From: Yoonia litorea
GTDB taxonomy: Bacteria > Pseudomonadota > Alphaproteobacteria > Rhodobacterales > Rhodobacteraceae
Length of the DNA: 64,000 bases
Direction of reading: 5' to 3'
Assembly (NCBI RefSeq): GCF_900114675.1
Contig: NZ_FOZM01000001.1
Span: forward strand, 868,001-932,000
The notes under the pieces were generated by a model. The model was not told where the DNA came from. It made no database searches and was given only the letters and a program-made list of their open reading frames with translations. Below, one piece after another: positions 12,464-18,481 of this stretch. The first letter of the stretch is position 1. The number at the start of each line of letters is the position of its first letter. A program made the translations under genes and the position numbers.

Positions 12464-13156
12464 ATGCGCGTTCTCTTCGCAGTTCTGTCATTTCTCGGTT
12501 TTTTCAGCGCGCAGCACGCCGTCGCTGAGGATGGTCCGGTGGTGGTTGAGCTTTACACCTCGCAAGGGTGCAGCTCTTGTCCGCCTGCAGATGCGCTCTT
12601 GCATGATCTGGCCGCGCGAGAGGACGTGATCGCGCTCGCACTTCACGTCGACTATTGGGATTACATCGGTTGGAAAGACATTTTTGGCCGGCCCGAAAAC
12701 ACCCAACGCCAGCACGGTTATGCAAGGGCGGCCAATGAACGGATCGTTTATACCCCTCAAATGGTGATCAACGGGCAGGACCATCTTGTCGGGTCGCGCA
12801 CCGGCGAGGTCATGGGCGCAGTGGAGCGTCATCTGGCCTTGGGTCAGGTCTTTGACGTGTCAGTCGTGCGTCAGGGCAACACAGTGACAATCGGTGCTGA
12901 TCCCGGCCCGCGCGGCCAGTATGAGGTGCAGATCGTCCGCTACTTGCCAAAAGCCACCGTCGACATTCGGCGCGGCGAAAACGCGGGTCGCACCATAAGC
13001 TATGCCAATATCGTTACGGCGTGGGATGCGGTCGCGCAGTGGGACGGACGTCAGGCGTTGCGGTTACGTGCGACAATCAGTGGTGACGAACCGGTTGTGG
13101 TGTTGCTTCAGTCTGTTGGTCATGGACCCATCGTTGGCGCAGCACAGCTTCGCTAG
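12464..13156 (+). CDS. DUF1223 secreted thioredoxin-like protein
   Basis: A 230-residue exported protein with an N-terminal signal sequence (MRVLFAVLSFLGFFSAQHAVA) and a thioredoxin-like N-terminal domain holding a CxxC in LYTSQGCSSCPPADALL. DUF1223 proteins are common in alphaproteobacteria with no settled function; the CxxC suggests periplasmic redox or metal handling. The ATG at 12464 has AAAGG six bases upstream; an in-frame ATG at 12437 is possible but poorly served. Its stop overlaps the converging acyltransferase stop. Confidence 0.85.
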   Translation: MRVLFAVLSFLGFFSAQHAVAEDGPVVVELYTSQGCSSCPPADALLHDLAAREDVIALALHVDYWDYIGWKDIFGRPENTQRQHGYARAANERIVYTPQMVINGQDHLVGSRTGEVMGAVERHLALGQVFDVSVVRQGNTVTIGADPGPRGQYEVQIVRYLPKATVDIRRGENAGRTISYANIVTAWDAVAQWDGRQALRLRATISGDEPVVVLLQSVGHGPIVGAAQLR

Positions 13157-14037
13157 GGCTGACCGCCATCCTTCCACCGCCGATGCACCCAGAACCATTG
13201 TGACGGATGACGCGCAATCTGCGCCTCAAGCCGCGCATTGAGCGCGAGGATCATCTCAACGGGTGTAGTGTGCGGAATTGGCGCTTCGACCTCGATCTGG
13301 AATGAAACACCGTCGTCTTGGCGGATGCCAAAGACTGGGATCACAATCGCATCAACCCGTAATGCAATTTCGGCAAGCGAGATGGCCGTCTTTGCCTTAT
13401 GACCCAGAAAAGGCAGGCGCTCGTGACCGGCTGAGACGTCAAAGTAGAGCGTTGCCATCCCGCCGCGCTTCAGGTGTTTGACAAAAGCCATTGTGCCTTG
13501 ACGGCCTTGGGCAAAGCAGGGCGCGCCGAGCGATTCAAGCGCGCCGACGTAAAGCTCGTTGAAATAGGGGTTGGTCATGGGCCGGTAGAGACTGCCAATC
13601 TCGTAGCCAAGTGCGGAAAGGGCGTGCCTTGGGGCTTCAGGGTTGCCGAAGTGCGCACCGGCAAGGATCACGGGCCGTTTCGCCGCTGCTGCCTCTGCCA
13701 GAACCGGCAGTCCCGGTCCGACCGGGGGCAGGGCTGCCGCGTGATCGGTGAACTCACGAAATGACTGGAATTCCATAAAGCTGCGACCGAAGTTGTCGCA
13801 GACGGCGTCTGCAAGCGCACGGCGTTCGGTGGCCGACATTTCAGGATAGATCCGCGCCAGATTATTTTCGGCACGCTTGGTATAGCCAGAGAGTGGCCCA
13901 ATTGCCTTTGCTGTGATGCGTCCAAAACGGGCGATGCGCTCCGCATAAGGGCGACGCCTCAGCGCGGCAATCATCGCACGTAACATACGGTCGGTCACCC
14001 AATCGGCGGCCTTTGAGCTTGAGGTTGTCTTTGCCAC
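13153..14037 (-). CDS. Lysophospholipid (LpxL-like) acyltransferase
   Basis: Membrane-associated acyltransferase of the LpxL/HtrB-like LPLAT family, 294 residues. Family features are GAHFGNPEAPRHALS (in place of the classic HxxxxD), the glycine-rich LGHKAKTAISLAE, and the C-terminal PSQWFWVHRRWK. It may acylate lipid A or another lipid; the acceptor cannot be told. A GTG start at 14037 lies 5 bp after the nitrile hydratase alpha-like stop with no clear ribosome binding site, so it looks translationally coupled to that operon. An internal Met at residue 18 is an alternative start. Confidence 0.82.
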   Translation of the reverse strand: MAKTTSSSKAADWVTDRMLRAMIAALRRRPYAERIARFGRITAKAIGPLSGYTKRAENNLARIYPEMSATERRALADAVCDNFGRSFMEFQSFREFTDHAAALPPVGPGLPVLAEAAAAKRPVILAGAHFGNPEAPRHALSALGYEIGSLYRPMTNPYFNELYVGALESLGAPCFAQGRQGTMAFVKHLKRGGMATLYFDVSAGHERLPFLGHKAKTAISLAEIALRVDAIVIPVFGIRQDDGVSFQIEVEAPIPHTTPVEMILALNARLEAQIARHPSQWFWVHRRWKDGGQP

Positions 14038-14042
14038 GGGCG

Positions 14043-14678
14043 TTAGGGTGCCTTTGCCAGTCCGGTGCCGATCATGCTGTCTCTGGTGACGAGTGCGGCA
14101 AGCGCCTCCTCATCAAGCCCTTCTGTCCCTTCAGGGCGCATCGGGATCACCACGTAGCGCATATCGGCAGTGCTGTCGTGCACCCGGACCGTCGTGCCAT
14201 CGGGCAGATCGACGCCAAACTCCGCAAGCACCTTGCGCGGTTCCTTGACGGTGCGGGCGCGATAGGCGCGGGATTTGTACCAGTCCGGCGGCAATCCCAA
14301 AAGATTGCGCGGATAGCACGAACACAAGGTGCAGACGACGACGTTATGGACCTCTGCTGTATTCTCAAGCGCAATCAGGCGCATGGGCCCGATATCAAAA
14401 CCCATCTCGCGCGTTGCCGCACTGGCGTCGGCAAACAACGCCTCGCGAAAGGCAGGGTCGGTCCACGCGCGCGCCACGACTTTTGCGCCATCAGTAGGGG
14501 ATCGCGCATCCATAGCGTCAATTTGGGCGCTGATCTCTGCGGCTGTGGTCACACCCTTTTCGATCAGCAACTCGCGCACCGCGATTTCCATTTGCTGCCA
14601 ATAGGTAAGCGGGTGATCGTTATCCGGCCGATAGGGGTGACCTGATGGTGACAGGTGGTCATGGTGATCATGTGGCAT
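14043..14678 (-). CDS. Nitrile hydratase alpha / thiocyanate hydrolase gamma-like subunit
   Basis: Metal-binding catalytic subunit of the nitrile hydratase superfamily, 211 residues. The claw motif VCTLCSCYP supplies Cys116, Cys119 and Cys121, the cobalt-type pattern in which two cysteines are oxidised to sulfinic and sulfenic acids. The C-terminal RPEGTEG and ALVTRDSMIG blocks are typical, and the N-terminus is rich in histidine (PHDHHDH). The ATG at 14678 overlaps the end of the preceding gene by 11 bp. Thiocyanate hydrolase gamma and classic alpha subunits share these motifs, so the substrate (nitrile, thiocyanate or other) is not settled. No activator gene is adjacent. Confidence 0.88.
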   Translation of the reverse strand: MPHDHHDHLSPSGHPYRPDNDHPLTYWQQMEIAVRELLIEKGVTTAAEISAQIDAMDARSPTDGAKVVARAWTDPAFREALFADASAATREMGFDIGPMRLIALENTAEVHNVVVCTLCSCYPRNLLGLPPDWYKSRAYRARTVKEPRKVLAEFGVDLPDGTTVRVHDSTADMRYVVIPMRPEGTEGLDEEALAALVTRDSMIGTGLAKAP

Positions 14679-14970
14679 GGGGTGCCTCCGCAGGCGCAAG
14701 CCAGTGGGCGTAGATTTCAGCATCGAGCGTGTCTTGCGGATTCTCTGCCGCATCGCCCCATACCTCCGCCATCGAAAACCGGACCCGCAGCAATGGTGTC
14801 GGGGTTCCGGCGTGGCGATAGGCGAGTTCTTCGGGATTAGGAAAGGATCCAAGCTCGCGTTCGATCCATCCTGTTTTGCCGCGCAAGTAGGCAGGCGTTC
14901 TCACGTGGCCCGGCGGCATATCCTCACGGACCCGCAGATATGTGCGTTCAGTCACTTGCGGCCTCCCCAT
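14668..14970 (-). CDS. Nitrile hydratase beta C-terminal half (thiocyanate hydrolase alpha-like)
   Basis: A 100-residue SH3-like protein matching only the C-terminal half of nitrile hydratase beta. GHVRTPAYLRGKTGWIE (residues 21-37) contains the Arg24 equivalent that contacts the oxidised cysteines in this family, and RVRFSMAEVWGDAAENPQDT is the usual beta C-terminal block. It overlaps the gene for the N-terminal half by 23 bp and the alpha-like gene by 11 bp. A GTG at 14955 is an alternative start giving a smaller overlap. This separate-gene state matches thiocyanate hydrolase and toyocamycin nitrile hydratase. Confidence 0.85.
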   Translation of the reverse strand: MGRPQVTERTYLRVREDMPPGHVRTPAYLRGKTGWIERELGSFPNPEELAYRHAGTPTPLLRVRFSMAEVWGDAAENPQDTLDAEIYAHWLAPAEAPHAT

Positions 14971-15298
14971 ATGTCGGGCCGCGTGCGGCGACCTCGGTCA
15001 TTTTGGTGGCAAGTTCGGCAGTCGTATAAACACCGGCTTCGATCAGGTTCTGATTGACCGAGGAAATCCAGCGTTCGTAGTATGACATGGTTTCAAACGC
15101 TTCTTCCCCCATATCTTCAAGGACGCGTCGCAGACCATCGACCGTGAAATGACCTTCTGAAGACGCTATCACCAGCAGGGCGTCAACGCGTTTTTCCCAA
15201 AGTGCGAAATCATGTGAGGCGTCAGGTACAGGCCCGGCGGCTGTTCCGCCCATGTCGTGCCAGCGCCGCCCGTCGAAGGATTTGGATGTTGTGCTCAT
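14948..15298 (-). CDS. Nitrile hydratase beta N-terminal half (thiocyanate hydrolase beta-like)
   Basis: A 116-residue protein matching only the N-terminal half of nitrile hydratase beta. It keeps the opening WHDMGG signature (residues 13-18) and MSYYERWISS (71-80), whose Arg76 matches the family arginine that contacts the metal site. It ends TKMTEVAARGPTYGEAASD with no SH3 barrel, which is supplied by the next gene. Nitrile hydratase activator proteins are also related to this half, so it could double as a maturation factor. First gene of the operon. Confidence 0.83.
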   Translation of the reverse strand: MSTTSKSFDGRRWHDMGGTAAGPVPDASHDFALWEKRVDALLVIASSEGHFTVDGLRRVLEDMGEEAFETMSYYERWISSVNQNLIEAGVYTTAELATKMTEVAARGPTYGEAASD

Positions 15299-15380: not shown

Positions 15381-16415
15381 TCAATCTGGAGCGAGTTCAT
15401 CGTCAGGGTCTTTGAGGGTGATCAGTCCAGCCTCGACCATTTCCCTAATGGCTGCCGTGACCTCTGCCATGGCTGCTTCTGCCTTGTCTTTCTGCACCTT
15501 GCCGCGCTCGTCGATTTCATCGCGAAGCTGCGAGGCCATCCTTTGGGAAAGGCTGGAAAGGATAAACTCTGCCGATTTTACATGTGCATCATCACTCGCG
15601 CTGGCCGCAGCTAGGGCGGTGCTGAGTGCTGTGTTATCCACGTTGCGGATCACGTTCGGGATATCGGTGGCCTGAACACGCGGTGCGATATCCTTGAACG
15701 TGAAGATCGCCTTTCGGACATCACTGGCAAAGGGCCGATCCTGGGCATCAAGATGTTCCAGCACATCTTCGCGGGTCTCTGATGGTGTCGCATTCAAAAC
15801 AGCACCCAGCCGCTGCACGGGAGGCTTATCAAAGGCGCGCGGGCTGGGTCGCGCGTAATCCTGTGCCAGTGCTGCCCCGATCCTGCGGACTGCATCGGGT
15901 TTGACGTCTGCTGTCTTTGACATTGCATATGTGATGGCGCGGGCGTGCGGCCCCTCAAGCTTGGACAGAACGGCGGCAGCTTTGCTGACTTGGGTTTTGG
16001 ACAGCACGATTGCGGAAACCTCAATGCTTTCGTTTTGCATGATCTTGACGATCTCCGCCTCTGGCAGGTCCACTACCAGCGGCCAGTGATCGCCTTCCCG
16101 CACGGATGTCAGCTGTTGGCGCAGGCTTTCGGCCAAGGGTGGGCTTAAATGCGCTGAGAGTGCCTCAATCGCGCCGTCCCGTGAGCCTGGCGCAGTCAGG
16201 CCGATGCTTTCGATTTCCGCGGTAAACTCGGCCACAATCGCATCGAGATCCTGCCTGCTGATCCGTCTGATGTCCCCCAAAGCATCCGTCAGCGCGCTTT
16301 GTGTCGATTCGGGCAGTTTCGCCAGTTCGATCCCATCGCCCGTTTCAATCATGAGTTGAACGACAGCGGCGGCTTTTTGTCGCTGGGTGAGTGGATATGT
16401 GTTGGGTGTCTCCAT
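15381..16415 (-). CDS. Orphan FliG-like flagellar motor switch protein
   Basis: A 344-residue protein with FliG architecture. It opens LTQRQKAAAVVQLMI as FliG does; a middle domain has LSKLEGPHARAITYAM where canonical FliG has EHPQ, so that motif is degenerate; the C-terminal torque domain is best conserved (VRKAIFTFKDI; then SQRMASQLRDEIDERG). No other flagellar gene is in the window. It could be a rotor component encoded apart from the main cluster or a paralogue with another role. It lies 47 bp after the HTH-less LuxR gene and may share its transcript. Confidence 0.75.
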   Translation of the reverse strand: METPNTYPLTQRQKAAAVVQLMIETGDGIELAKLPESTQSALTDALGDIRRISRQDLDAIVAEFTAEIESIGLTAPGSRDGAIEALSAHLSPPLAESLRQQLTSVREGDHWPLVVDLPEAEIVKIMQNESIEVSAIVLSKTQVSKAAAVLSKLEGPHARAITYAMSKTADVKPDAVRRIGAALAQDYARPSPRAFDKPPVQRLGAVLNATPSETREDVLEHLDAQDRPFASDVRKAIFTFKDIAPRVQATDIPNVIRNVDNTALSTALAAASASDDAHVKSAEFILSSLSQRMASQLRDEIDERGKVQKDKAEAAMAEVTAAIREMVEAGLITLKDPDDELAPD

Positions 16416-16462: not shown

Positions 16463-16951
16463 CTACGATCCGGGGTGGGTCACCATGACTGCCATCTTCT
16501 TGAGATGCGCAAGCGTCGCCTCGTTCAGTTCGGAGGTATCTGCGGTCGCATCGTGGATCAGTTTCATGTCCTTGAAGATCAGTTCAATCTCTTCATCTGT
16601 CAGTTCGCGATCCGATCGCGCCAAGCCGCCCAAACTGCGGCTTCCATTGGTGTTCACGGCAACAACCGCACCAAACTTCATGCCGTATTCAGACGCGAGT
16701 TTCATCACGCCGGAGCTGTCATCAAGGTTCGACCAGCGCTCTGTTCCTTCGTTCGAGAAACCCCATGCAACCATCGGATCAACCATCAACAATCCGTTGC
16801 TGGAATAGTGGTCCAGCCATGCCTTCGGGTAGGTCTGAAAGACAAACTTGGGCGCCATCAGCTCGATATGAAACCCGAGTGCATATCCAGCGGGACTCAA
16901 CTTATGGAGACGTCCGAGGGCTTCACTAACTATGGTTTCATTCGTCGACAT
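16463..16951 (-). CDS. LuxR-like autoinducer-binding protein without HTH domain
   Basis: A 162-residue protein made only of the LuxR autoinducer-binding domain. Family ligand-pocket positions are kept in WLDHYSSNGLLMVDPMVAWG (Trp, Tyr, Asp-Pro) and YGMKFGAVVAV, and RSDRELTDEE matches RSDREFTELE in the neighbouring LuxR, showing paralogy. The chain stops where the helix-turn-helix would begin, and the 47 bp to fliG hold no HTH remnant. It could bind signal or form inactive dimers with the intact LuxR, as HTH-less LuxR proteins do elsewhere; that is inference. Divergent from luxR across 141 bp. Confidence 0.85.
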   Translation of the reverse strand: MSTNETIVSEALGRLHKLSPAGYALGFHIELMAPKFVFQTYPKAWLDHYSSNGLLMVDPMVAWGFSNEGTERWSNLDDSSGVMKLASEYGMKFGAVVAVNTNGSRSLGGLARSDRELTDEEIELIFKDMKLIHDATADTSELNEATLAHLKKMAVMVTHPGS

Positions 16952-17092: not shown

Positions 17093-17701
17093 ATGTCAGA
17101 TCTTCTCGGCCTTGACGAGATTGGACAGCTAGCGCCGGCAGGTTACTACATTGCTTTGCGGATCGGCTTTGCGTTCCCGATGGAAGAGGTGAACGAGCTT
17201 CCTGACGATTGGGTCCGTCACTATACCGTCAACGGTTTTGGGCTGTTTGATCCTGTCCTGAGGTGGGCCTATGCCAATGTCGGGACATGCCGCTGGTCCG
17301 ACCTGAAAATCGACGATCCCCGCAATATCATGTCACAGGCGCAAAGCTTTGGCCTGCGTTACGGGCTTGTGGTGTCGGTCTTCGATTCCGGCGCAAATGC
17401 ACAGCGGTCCTTTGCATCTTTTGCGCGATCTGACCGTGAATTTACAGAGCTTGAGTCAAAGCTGCTGCTGGCCTACCTGCGGCGCCGTCATCACGAGGCA
17501 GCACCACCCACCAACCTGACCAAAGCAGAGCTTGAAGCACTGGGTATGGTGAAGGACGGATTGCGACTGAAAGAAATCGCCTACAGGTTGAATGTGAGCG
17601 AGGGTGCGGTCAAGCAAAGGCTCAAGAACGCCAAAAAGAAACTTGGTGCAAAAACGGGCTCGCAAGCTGCCGCATTAGCCAACCAGTTCGGTCTAATCTA
17701 G
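17093..17701 (+). CDS. LuxR-family quorum sensing regulator
   Basis: A 202-residue transcriptional regulator with an N-terminal autoinducer-binding domain (residues 1-140) and a C-terminal LuxR HTH (about 143-202). Ligand-pocket residues appear in WVRHYTVNGFGLFDPVLRWA. The HTH reads LTKAELEALGMVKDGLRLKEIAYRLNVSEGAVKQRLKNAKKKLGAK, a normal GerE-type domain (shown here in outline: LKEIAYRLNVSEGAVKQRL is the core). GAGG precedes the ATG. luxI lies 123 bp downstream on the same strand, so the two form a LuxR/LuxI pair. Confidence 0.92.
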   Translation: MSDLLGLDEIGQLAPAGYYIALRIGFAFPMEEVNELPDDWVRHYTVNGFGLFDPVLRWAYANVGTCRWSDLKIDDPRNIMSQAQSFGLRYGLVVSVFDSGANAQRSFASFARSDREFTELESKLLLAYLRRRHHEAAPPTNLTKAELEALGMVKDGLRLKEIAYRLNVSEGAVKQRLKNAKKKLGAKTGSQAAALANQFGLI

Positions 17702-17824: not shown

Positions 17825-18481
17825 ATGCAAAACATTACTTTTAACCTGACAGAGCTGCACAAGCACGGAACGGCGTTCTTCGAATACCTCGCACTTCGCA
17901 AGCAATTCTTCGTCGATCAACTGGGCTGGGACATCCCACATGACGAGGATGTCGAGATGGATCAATACGACAACCCTAAGGCGTTTTACTCGCTCGCCGT
18001 CAAAGATGGGAAAGTTGTCGGCGGCATGCGAACGATGGCGACAACCGCGCAGTGGGGTTCGCATACCTACATGCTGCGTGACGCCGTTGATGGAAAGCTG
18101 ATCGGCATCCCGCAAGATATTCTGCCTGAGGCCGAAGTGACACCTTCAGTCTGGGAGGCGACGCGCATCGTAATTGCGGATGAGGTTGGGACCCACAAGG
18201 AACGGTCACAGTGCCTGGGGCTGTTGCTTGATGGTGTGTGCCGTCAGGCAGAAGAGCATGGCGCCACCGAAATCATGGCACTTTGCCCGCCGGTTTTTGC
18301 ACGGACCATGCGCACGATTGGTTATCCGGTCTACCCGATTGGCGAACCATATGTGAATGAGCATGACAACCGGAAGTATGTGGCCATGAAAGGCAAGCTG
18401 GCAGGGATCACTGCCAAGCGGCAGCCCCATGATGTCAATGTGCTGCGTCCTGACTTCTTAGGTCAAACGACAGCCGCATAA
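17825..18481 (+). CDS. Acyl-homoserine lactone synthase (LuxI family)
   Basis: Makes N-acyl-homoserine lactone signal from S-adenosylmethionine and an acyl-ACP. The 218 residues keep the family-invariant set: Arg25, Phe29, Trp35, Glu44, Asp46, Asp49 (EMDQYDN), Arg69, Glu111 and Arg114 (WEATRIVI). The loop after Arg69 reads MATTAQW instead of the usual LxPT. The acyl chain made cannot be predicted. A GAGGGAA site precedes the ATG. Likely activated by the upstream LuxR. Confidence 0.93.
   Translation: MQNITFNLTELHKHGTAFFEYLALRKQFFVDQLGWDIPHDEDVEMDQYDNPKAFYSLAVKDGKVVGGMRTMATTAQWGSHTYMLRDAVDGKLIGIPQDILPEAEVTPSVWEATRIVIADEVGTHKERSQCLGLLLDGVCRQAEEHGATEIMALCPPVFARTMRTIGYPVYPIGEPYVNEHDNRKYVAMKGKLAGITAKRQPHDVNVLRPDFLGQTTAA

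Follow-up and report, generated by a model that had tools for sequence, protein, structure and literature searches.

The Yoonia litorea genome carries a locus with conserved catalytic residues, a signature of purifying selection and membership of a deep group of nitrile hydratases (NHases) in which beta is split into two genes and a separate activator is lacking. Its three genes most likely encode a three-subunit, cobalt-dependent, self-maturing NHase that would convert R-CN and H2O to R-CONH2, a reading to which we assign a probability of roughly 75%. Alpha would carry the Co(III) claw, while betaN and betaC would each give one arginine holding the oxidised claw cysteines and would together replace one fused beta subunit. 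betaN would probably also bind apo-alpha during maturation (as alpha-betaN2) and help cobalt in before the three-part enzyme assembles. Activity, cobalt, complex and chaperone role are proposed here by analogy with AnhDEA of S. canus, for which the available text of PMC7329996 reports activity and the chaperone role.

Within the window, meaning the whole 64,000-nucleotide stretch of DNA analysed, the operon consists of three overlapping minus-strand genes at 14043-15298 in the order betaN-betaC-alpha. betaN (14948..15298, minus strand, 116 aa) is a free-standing N-terminal half of NHase beta resembling ScnB and AnhD (PF21006, 67.5 bits, cut-off 21.5). betaC (14668..14970, minus strand, 100 aa) is the free-standing C-terminal half, ScnA/AnhE-like (PF02211, 63.8 bits, cut-off 27.7), and matched C-terminal halves of NHase beta among PDB sequences, and alpha (14043..14678, minus strand, 211 aa) is NthA/AnhA/ScnC-like (PF02979, 272.9 bits, cut-off 27.2). 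These coordinates and the three Pfam matches confirm the claim of the initial annotation that this is an NHase-family operon with beta encoded as two genes. With ATG starts the genes overlap by 23 and 11 nt; betaC may instead start at a GTG at 14955, giving an 8-nt overlap with betaN, because many of its listed relatives are 95 aa long. Alpha passed the NHase alpha model TIGR01323 (nitrile_alph; 263.4 bits, cut-off 249.85), and betaN and betaC matched opposite ends of TIGR03888 as separate proteins (61.0 and 60.7 bits, cut-off 152.2), with no single fused beta above that cut-off at the Yoonia litorea locus.

Searches at E <= 0.001 returned 1915 homologues of betaN and 891 of betaC (best 120 of each listed), and comparison with nine relatives gave pN of 0.10-0.32 and pS of 0.62-0.82, the latter near saturation, in all three genes, as expected under purifying selection. 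Homologues in many genomes and pN far below pS argue that betaN, betaC and alpha are real genes. The host genome (99.94% complete) holds a single alpha match and a single PF21006 match. Among the matches listed, named near relatives of betaN and betaC were mostly from Yoonia, and NCBI names for relatives included 'ScnB-like protein', 'SH3-like domain-containing protein' and 'nitrile hydratase subunit beta'.

Alpha was found in 156 of 295 searched genomes of the host's family (Rhodobacteraceae). Forty-five listed matches, including the window's own, were >= 68% identical; 41 of these were fetched, and betaN, betaC and alpha were separate intact genes, in that order, in all 40 fetched close relatives (of 44 found) as in the window. 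Among the 29 fetched loci with alpha matches <= 62%, 23 had a fused beta in the order alpha-beta-activator, four were split (L041, L043, L050, L056), one had a broken beta (L046) and one was incomplete (L063). No close relative combining the window's gene order with a fused beta appeared among the loci fetched. Whole genes also lie between betaN and betaC in three loci (2412-2933 in L010 and 2414-2959 in L025, both cupin-like by eye, and 471-1247 in L015, lysozyme/chitinase-like by eye), indicating that translational coupling of the two halves is not required. Broken beta genes do exist in alpha-first operons with an activator (L046, L082), but the intact genes of the close relatives, the intervening genes, purifying selection and a deep separate clade make it scarcely credible that the window holds a two-subunit operon that has decayed or recently come apart.

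The split arrangement extends well beyond the family. Plasmids of Planktothrix and Streptomyces carry it in the order betaN-betaC-alpha, and plasmids of Polymorphobacter, Rhizobium and Azospirillum in the order betaC-alpha-betaN. Many further split loci came from a wider genome scan that is not a fair sample, as 80 of at least 593 candidates were kept by rank of likeness to the gamma subunit of thiocyanate hydrolase (SCNase). The 104 non-SCNase split loci, often annotated generically, come from Pseudomonadota, Actinomycetota, Cyanobacteriota and Binatota, and within the host genus betaN matches of more than 170 bits were found in 18 of 25 genomes, counting its own. On the Rhizobium plasmid (L108, 475-4309) an IS21 element sits inside the betaC-alpha-betaN operon, with alpha read in two frames.

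The cobalt-type cysteine claw described in the initial annotation was borne out as C116-T-L-C-S-C121 of alpha (14316..14333, minus strand), intact in the window and conserved in 182/182 loci. These are the loci with readable architecture, L003-L189 without the alpha-first operons L046 and L082, whose beta is broken, and without the incomplete L063, L145 and L153. Locus counts are not independent events: there are 47 distinct alphas among the 53 window-clade loci (six identical pairs, from near twins or genomes retrieved twice) and 50 among the 52 fused loci. Membership of the window and SCNase clades was assigned by hand from similarity and tree, and the SCNase-clade loci L129-L135, only 58-62% identical to ScnC, may not be SCNases. 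Two arginines had also been assigned to the metal site. The one in the C-terminal half was right, as betaC Arg24 (14899..14901, minus strand) aligned with Arg149 of the P. putida enzyme (PDB 3qxe) and was arginine in 182/182 loci. The one in the N-terminal half, given as Arg76, was wrong: P. putida Arg52 (3qxe chain B) aligned with Arg57 of the betaN pair Arg57-Arg58 (15125..15130, minus strand), and Arg57 was arginine in 182/182 loci. The Arg52 numbering was counted on 3qxe_B and agrees with PDB entries titled beta-E56Q and beta-H71L, the latter being 3qyh. Arg76 itself aligned with P. putida His71 (YYEHW), and its position was arginine in 53/53 window-clade, 26/26 SCNase-clade, 48/51 other split and 6/52 fused loci.

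Two further arginines appear to set the split enzymes apart. Alpha Arg124 (14307..14309, minus strand) aligned with SCNase gamma Arg136, the position of the NHase tryptophan, and was arginine in 53/53 window-clade, 26/26 SCNase-clade and 48/51 other split loci (the rest two W and one K), while the 52 fused loci carry W (45), F (5) or H (2) there and never arginine. betaN Arg58 was likewise arginine in 53/53 window-clade, 26/26 SCNase-clade and 39/51 other split loci, and its position was H, F, Y or A in 49/52 fused loci. The sequence of PDB 3vyg ('Thiocyanate hydrolase mutant R136W') shows a swap of this residue, and 3vyh ('aW116R mutant of nitrile hydratase') is by its title the reverse swap at the equivalent position. 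Because of alpha Arg124 and betaN Arg58, the window enzyme and SCNase have an Arg-rich pocket in common. Since nearly the whole split group has it, this pocket is no mark of thiocyanate hydrolysis, and arginine at the gamma Arg136 position is correspondingly unspecific as an indicator of SCNase. The enzyme may nonetheless act on a polar or anionic substrate, given the SCNase-type Arg124. Conserved betaN E61 and betaC H22 look like the counterparts of AnhD-Glu56 and AnhE-His21, which contribute to catalysis in the S. canus enzyme according to the available text of a 2026 review (PMC13243292).

The genes anhD-anhE-anhA of S. canus CGMCC 13662 encode betaN, betaC and alpha of an NHase (ScNHase) whose host genome has no activator, as described in the accessible part of PMC7329996. 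There the complex is given as AnhD2E2A2, AnhD2A activates the apoenzyme and AnhD is the cobalt chaperone. The 2026 review, as far as its text was available, gives the same layout and groups ScNHase and the S. rimosus NHase in a separate branch (PMC13243292). Compared by published description, the window's operon is like that of ScNHase in its betaN-betaC-alpha order, lack of an activator, small beta halves and probable status as a cobalt enzyme, and unlike it in phylum; activity is shown for ScNHase only. Two other Streptomyces split loci (L104, L146) likewise have arginine after the claw and no activator, and in the alpha tree L104 falls with the split enzymes. The initial annotation regarded the layout as one known for thiocyanate hydrolase and toyocamycin NHase, which was correct as far as it went but missed the closest published case, S. 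canus AnhDEA (PMC7329996, available text), and the layout is also widespread. Since AnhDEA was already published, as that text shows, the layout is not new, and the present analysis adds its occurrence in marine Rhodobacteraceae and the traits linked to it.

Among those traits is the distribution of activators relative to the architecture of beta. Fused relatives in the host's family run alpha-beta-activator and have W, F or H where the window has Arg124. The toyocamycin NHase ToyJKL of Streptomyces rimosus, which we take to be a three-subunit NHase in a biosynthetic context, shares its three-subunit build with the window. It is cited in PMC13243292 and, as TNHase, in PMC7329996, the latter noting that its alpha subunit alone was reported active. 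The two-subunit cobalt NHases of P. putida (3qxe) and P. thermophila (1ire), unlike the window, have one fused beta and a separate activator, and Roseobacter sp. MedPE-SWchi has a two-subunit cobalt NHase with an activator as well (PMC7321127, available text).

An extra betaN-like (activator) gene was present in 50/52 fused loci, being absent from L094 and from L165, which lies at a contig end. It was found at 0/53 window-clade loci (47 distinct alphas), with flanks of 1.5-4 kb in most and L008 ending 29 bp after alpha. Only 2/51 other split loci had an extra match, in L108 a fragment in the alpha frame of the IS21-broken operon and in L163 a second betaN in tandem. Genome-wide, the activator model TIGR03889 scored over its cut-off in 0/42 genomes regarded as split-only, 38 of them judged from fetched loci and four (G004, G045, G162, G276) from alpha identity alone; a weak match in G143 (21.7 bits) fell on betaN itself. 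Among genomes with a fused locus 15/16 were over the cut-off, with G128 counted by its match beside an unfetched alpha, and the sixteenth, G127, reached 41.6 bits against a cut-off of 46. The host genome (99.94% complete) gave 0 TIGR03889 matches in two scans, the first run without a positive control and the second giving matches in 16/16 fused-locus genomes (15 over the cut-off); no activator gene of the kind found with two-subunit NHases was thus found in it.

This co-occurrence (fused loci 50/52 with an activator, window clade 0/53) fits an AnhD-style chaperone role, and the lack of a separate activator suggests that betaN probably doubles as the maturation partner of apo-alpha. The association does not represent many independent events, because split versus fused is roughly one deep branch of an unrooted tree. 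Splitting alone also does not remove the need for an activator, since SCNase-clade loci are split and have one in 14/18 cases (and in 7/8 fused loci of that clade). A tree of betaN (104 rows, only 93 columns, bootstrap not settled) put free betaN and all SCNase rows on one side (57 rows, 100/99). NHase activators formed one group on the fused side (23 rows, 100/99) and SCNase activators another inside the SCNase betaN clade (5 rows, 100/97). The two groups suggest that dedicated activators evolved from betaN on two separate occasions, a lead rather than a proof given the few columns.

Trees, unrooted and drawn at midpoint, placed the window among split enzymes. In the alpha tree (76 rows, 199 columns) alphas with fused beta formed one group (26 rows including L082 and PDB 2dpp; 100/97), and the window lay within ten split rows, mostly Rhodobacteraceae (100/98). 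Within the split alphas, SCNases including PDB 2dd4 grouped as a five-row clade (100/100), and one long split row, L151, attached beside the fused group (97/87), against a clean division. In the concatenated tree (78 rows, 376 columns) the fused group of 25 rows, including L082 with its broken beta but not L151, was supported at 100/100, the window clade of 10 rows, mostly Rhodobacteraceae, at 100/99, and the SCNase clade of 8 rows at 100/100. The earlier proposal of a three-subunit NHase-family enzyme that is not a recent split was supported by this separate split clade, and both trees kept the window outside the fused group of ordinary two-subunit NHases. Actinobacterial members of the SCNase clade (L120-L126, L128; Mycobacterium, Actinomycetospora) have a fused beta and keep arginine after the claw, apparently through a second, independent beta fusion.

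A role in thiocyanate use had also been suggested, in which the window would encode a thiocyanate hydrolase or SCNase-like enzyme (SCN- + 2 H2O -> COS + NH3 + OH-) supplying nitrogen or sulfur. SCNase-type residues are indeed present: alpha Arg124 corresponds to gamma Arg136, the residue swapped in 3vyg and reversed in 3vyh, betaN Arg58 and Arg76 are also arginine in 26/26 SCNase-clade loci, and the three-gene order is that of SCNase loci L110-L119. The role itself found no support. ScnBAC of Thiobacillus thioparus (2dd4, 3vyg) differs in having its own clade, which holds PDB 2dd4 and excludes the window in both the alpha and concatenated trees, a gamma insertion that column comparison found absent from the window alpha, and a separate activator in 14/18 split loci. 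At 26 SCNase-diagnostic columns (17 alpha, 7 betaN, 2 betaC), picked from the same sequences and with seven in the gamma insertion, the window matched 0/26. Alpha scored 200.8 bits against the SCNase gamma model TIGR03887, below its cut-off of 291.45. Forcing the window clade and SCNase together, in groups chosen after the alpha tree was known, lowered the log-likelihood by 27.5 (p-AU 0.028). Transport genes of the SCNase clade (ABC ATPase in L119, NMT1-type binding protein in L111) had no counterpart among the window neighbours scanned, the host genome had no SoxB over cut-off (133 versus 550 bits), and the S. canus NHase, which has this layout, acts on neutral nitriles (PMC7329996, available text). 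By these family comparisons the window is on the split-beta side, as SCNase is, but is not an SCNase, and thiocyanate hydrolysis is improbable.

Substrate range within the NHase reading could be shaped by the same arginines. Acetamiprid and thiacloprid are N-cyano compounds. ScNHase hydrates both, as well as 'BN', which we read as benzonitrile, and does not hydrate indole-3-acetonitrile, according to the available portion of PMC7329996. Specialisation for a small polar or N-cyano substrate of the cyanamide type through an Arg-lined pocket is thus a tentative possibility, consistent with Arg124 in place of the W/F/H of fused enzymes, with Arg58 in place of mostly H/F/Y/A and with the two N-cyano substrates; against it, ScNHase also takes 'BN', no split-NHase structure was found in which to place the arginine, and the linked genes point to no such substrate. 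An auxin-type role, with indole-3-acetonitrile hydrated toward indole-3-acetic acid (IAA) as suggested for algae-associated roseobacters, is very unlikely. The accessible marine Rhodobacteraceae literature does contain the terms nitrile hydratase, indole-3-acetonitrile and Sulfitobacter, but ScNHase is inactive on this nitrile, no pathway genes were seen beside the window genes, and a Phaeobacter inhibens Tn5 mutant in a 'nitrile hydratase subunit beta' gene (split or fused not stated in the available text) still makes IAA (PMC5148602).

The neighbourhood of the operon is often conserved. An LpxL/HtrB-type acyltransferase gene (13153..14037, minus strand; PF03279), a neighbour outside the enzyme, starts 6 bp after alpha and is possibly co-transcribed with it. 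Homologues lay downstream on the same strand in 26/38 loci (L003-L040, the window's own included) and a DUF1223 gene lay on the opposite strand in 23/38; neither was found in the 2-kb flanks of 23 fused family loci. These neighbours mark a stable chromosomal slot, which points to vertical inheritance and names no pathway. Directly upstream of betaN is a divergent FliG-like gene (15381-16415, minus strand; TIGR00207, 114.5 bits, cut-off 226.7), and 21 of these 38 loci, counting the window's own, have a homologue upstream in the same orientation. The neighbour proteins scanned included no amidase, nitrile-forming enzyme or cobalt importer, and the host genome contains no CbtA and three amidase-family genes, all unlinked to the locus. 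In L144 and L056, from two other split clades, the gene immediately after alpha encodes an amidase, as expected for a route from nitrile to amide to acid. Aquaporin genes occur near L104, L106, L108 and L146, while L104 and L105 have a NixA-type transporter. A further gene follows alpha in nine loci; in the two of these that were tested, L159 and L013, it encodes an EamA-type transporter.

More broadly, and as speculation, split-beta NHases could be an old, widespread lineage in which betaN is both catalytic subunit and its own cobalt chaperone. Activators would have arisen from betaN at least twice (with the fused beta and in the SCNase lineage), and the Arg pocket of alpha Arg124 and betaN Arg58 would direct the marine Rhodobacteraceae enzymes mainly to a small polar or anionic cyano compound, not ordinary nitriles. 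The literature available to us yielded ScNHase and TNHase as the only characterised three-subunit NHases, against 104 non-SCNase split loci here. The three linked traits (split beta, no activator, arginine after the claw) make a simple sequence rule for a possible class of self-maturing cobalt enzymes. They open two questions to experiment, namely whether betaN takes the place of the activator and whether substrate choice depends on the Arg/Trp position, and activator-free enzymes would be easier to use as catalysts.

Other observations concern the surroundings and the subunits themselves. A LuxI-type synthase and two LuxR-type genes lie at 16463-16951 (minus), 17093-17701 (plus) and 17825-18481 (plus). 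A 162-aa LuxR-type protein may lack a DNA-binding domain, because only the autoinducer-binding part of the model matches, and a homologue (61%) occurs in the Yoonia maricola locus L188. A LIEKGV/LIEAGV motif is common to the initial helices of alpha and the final helices of betaN. A betaN profile matched alpha N-termini with up to 30 bits, and an iterated profile, which may have absorbed alpha sequences, with up to 55 bits, a hint of old common ancestry of the alpha and beta subunits.
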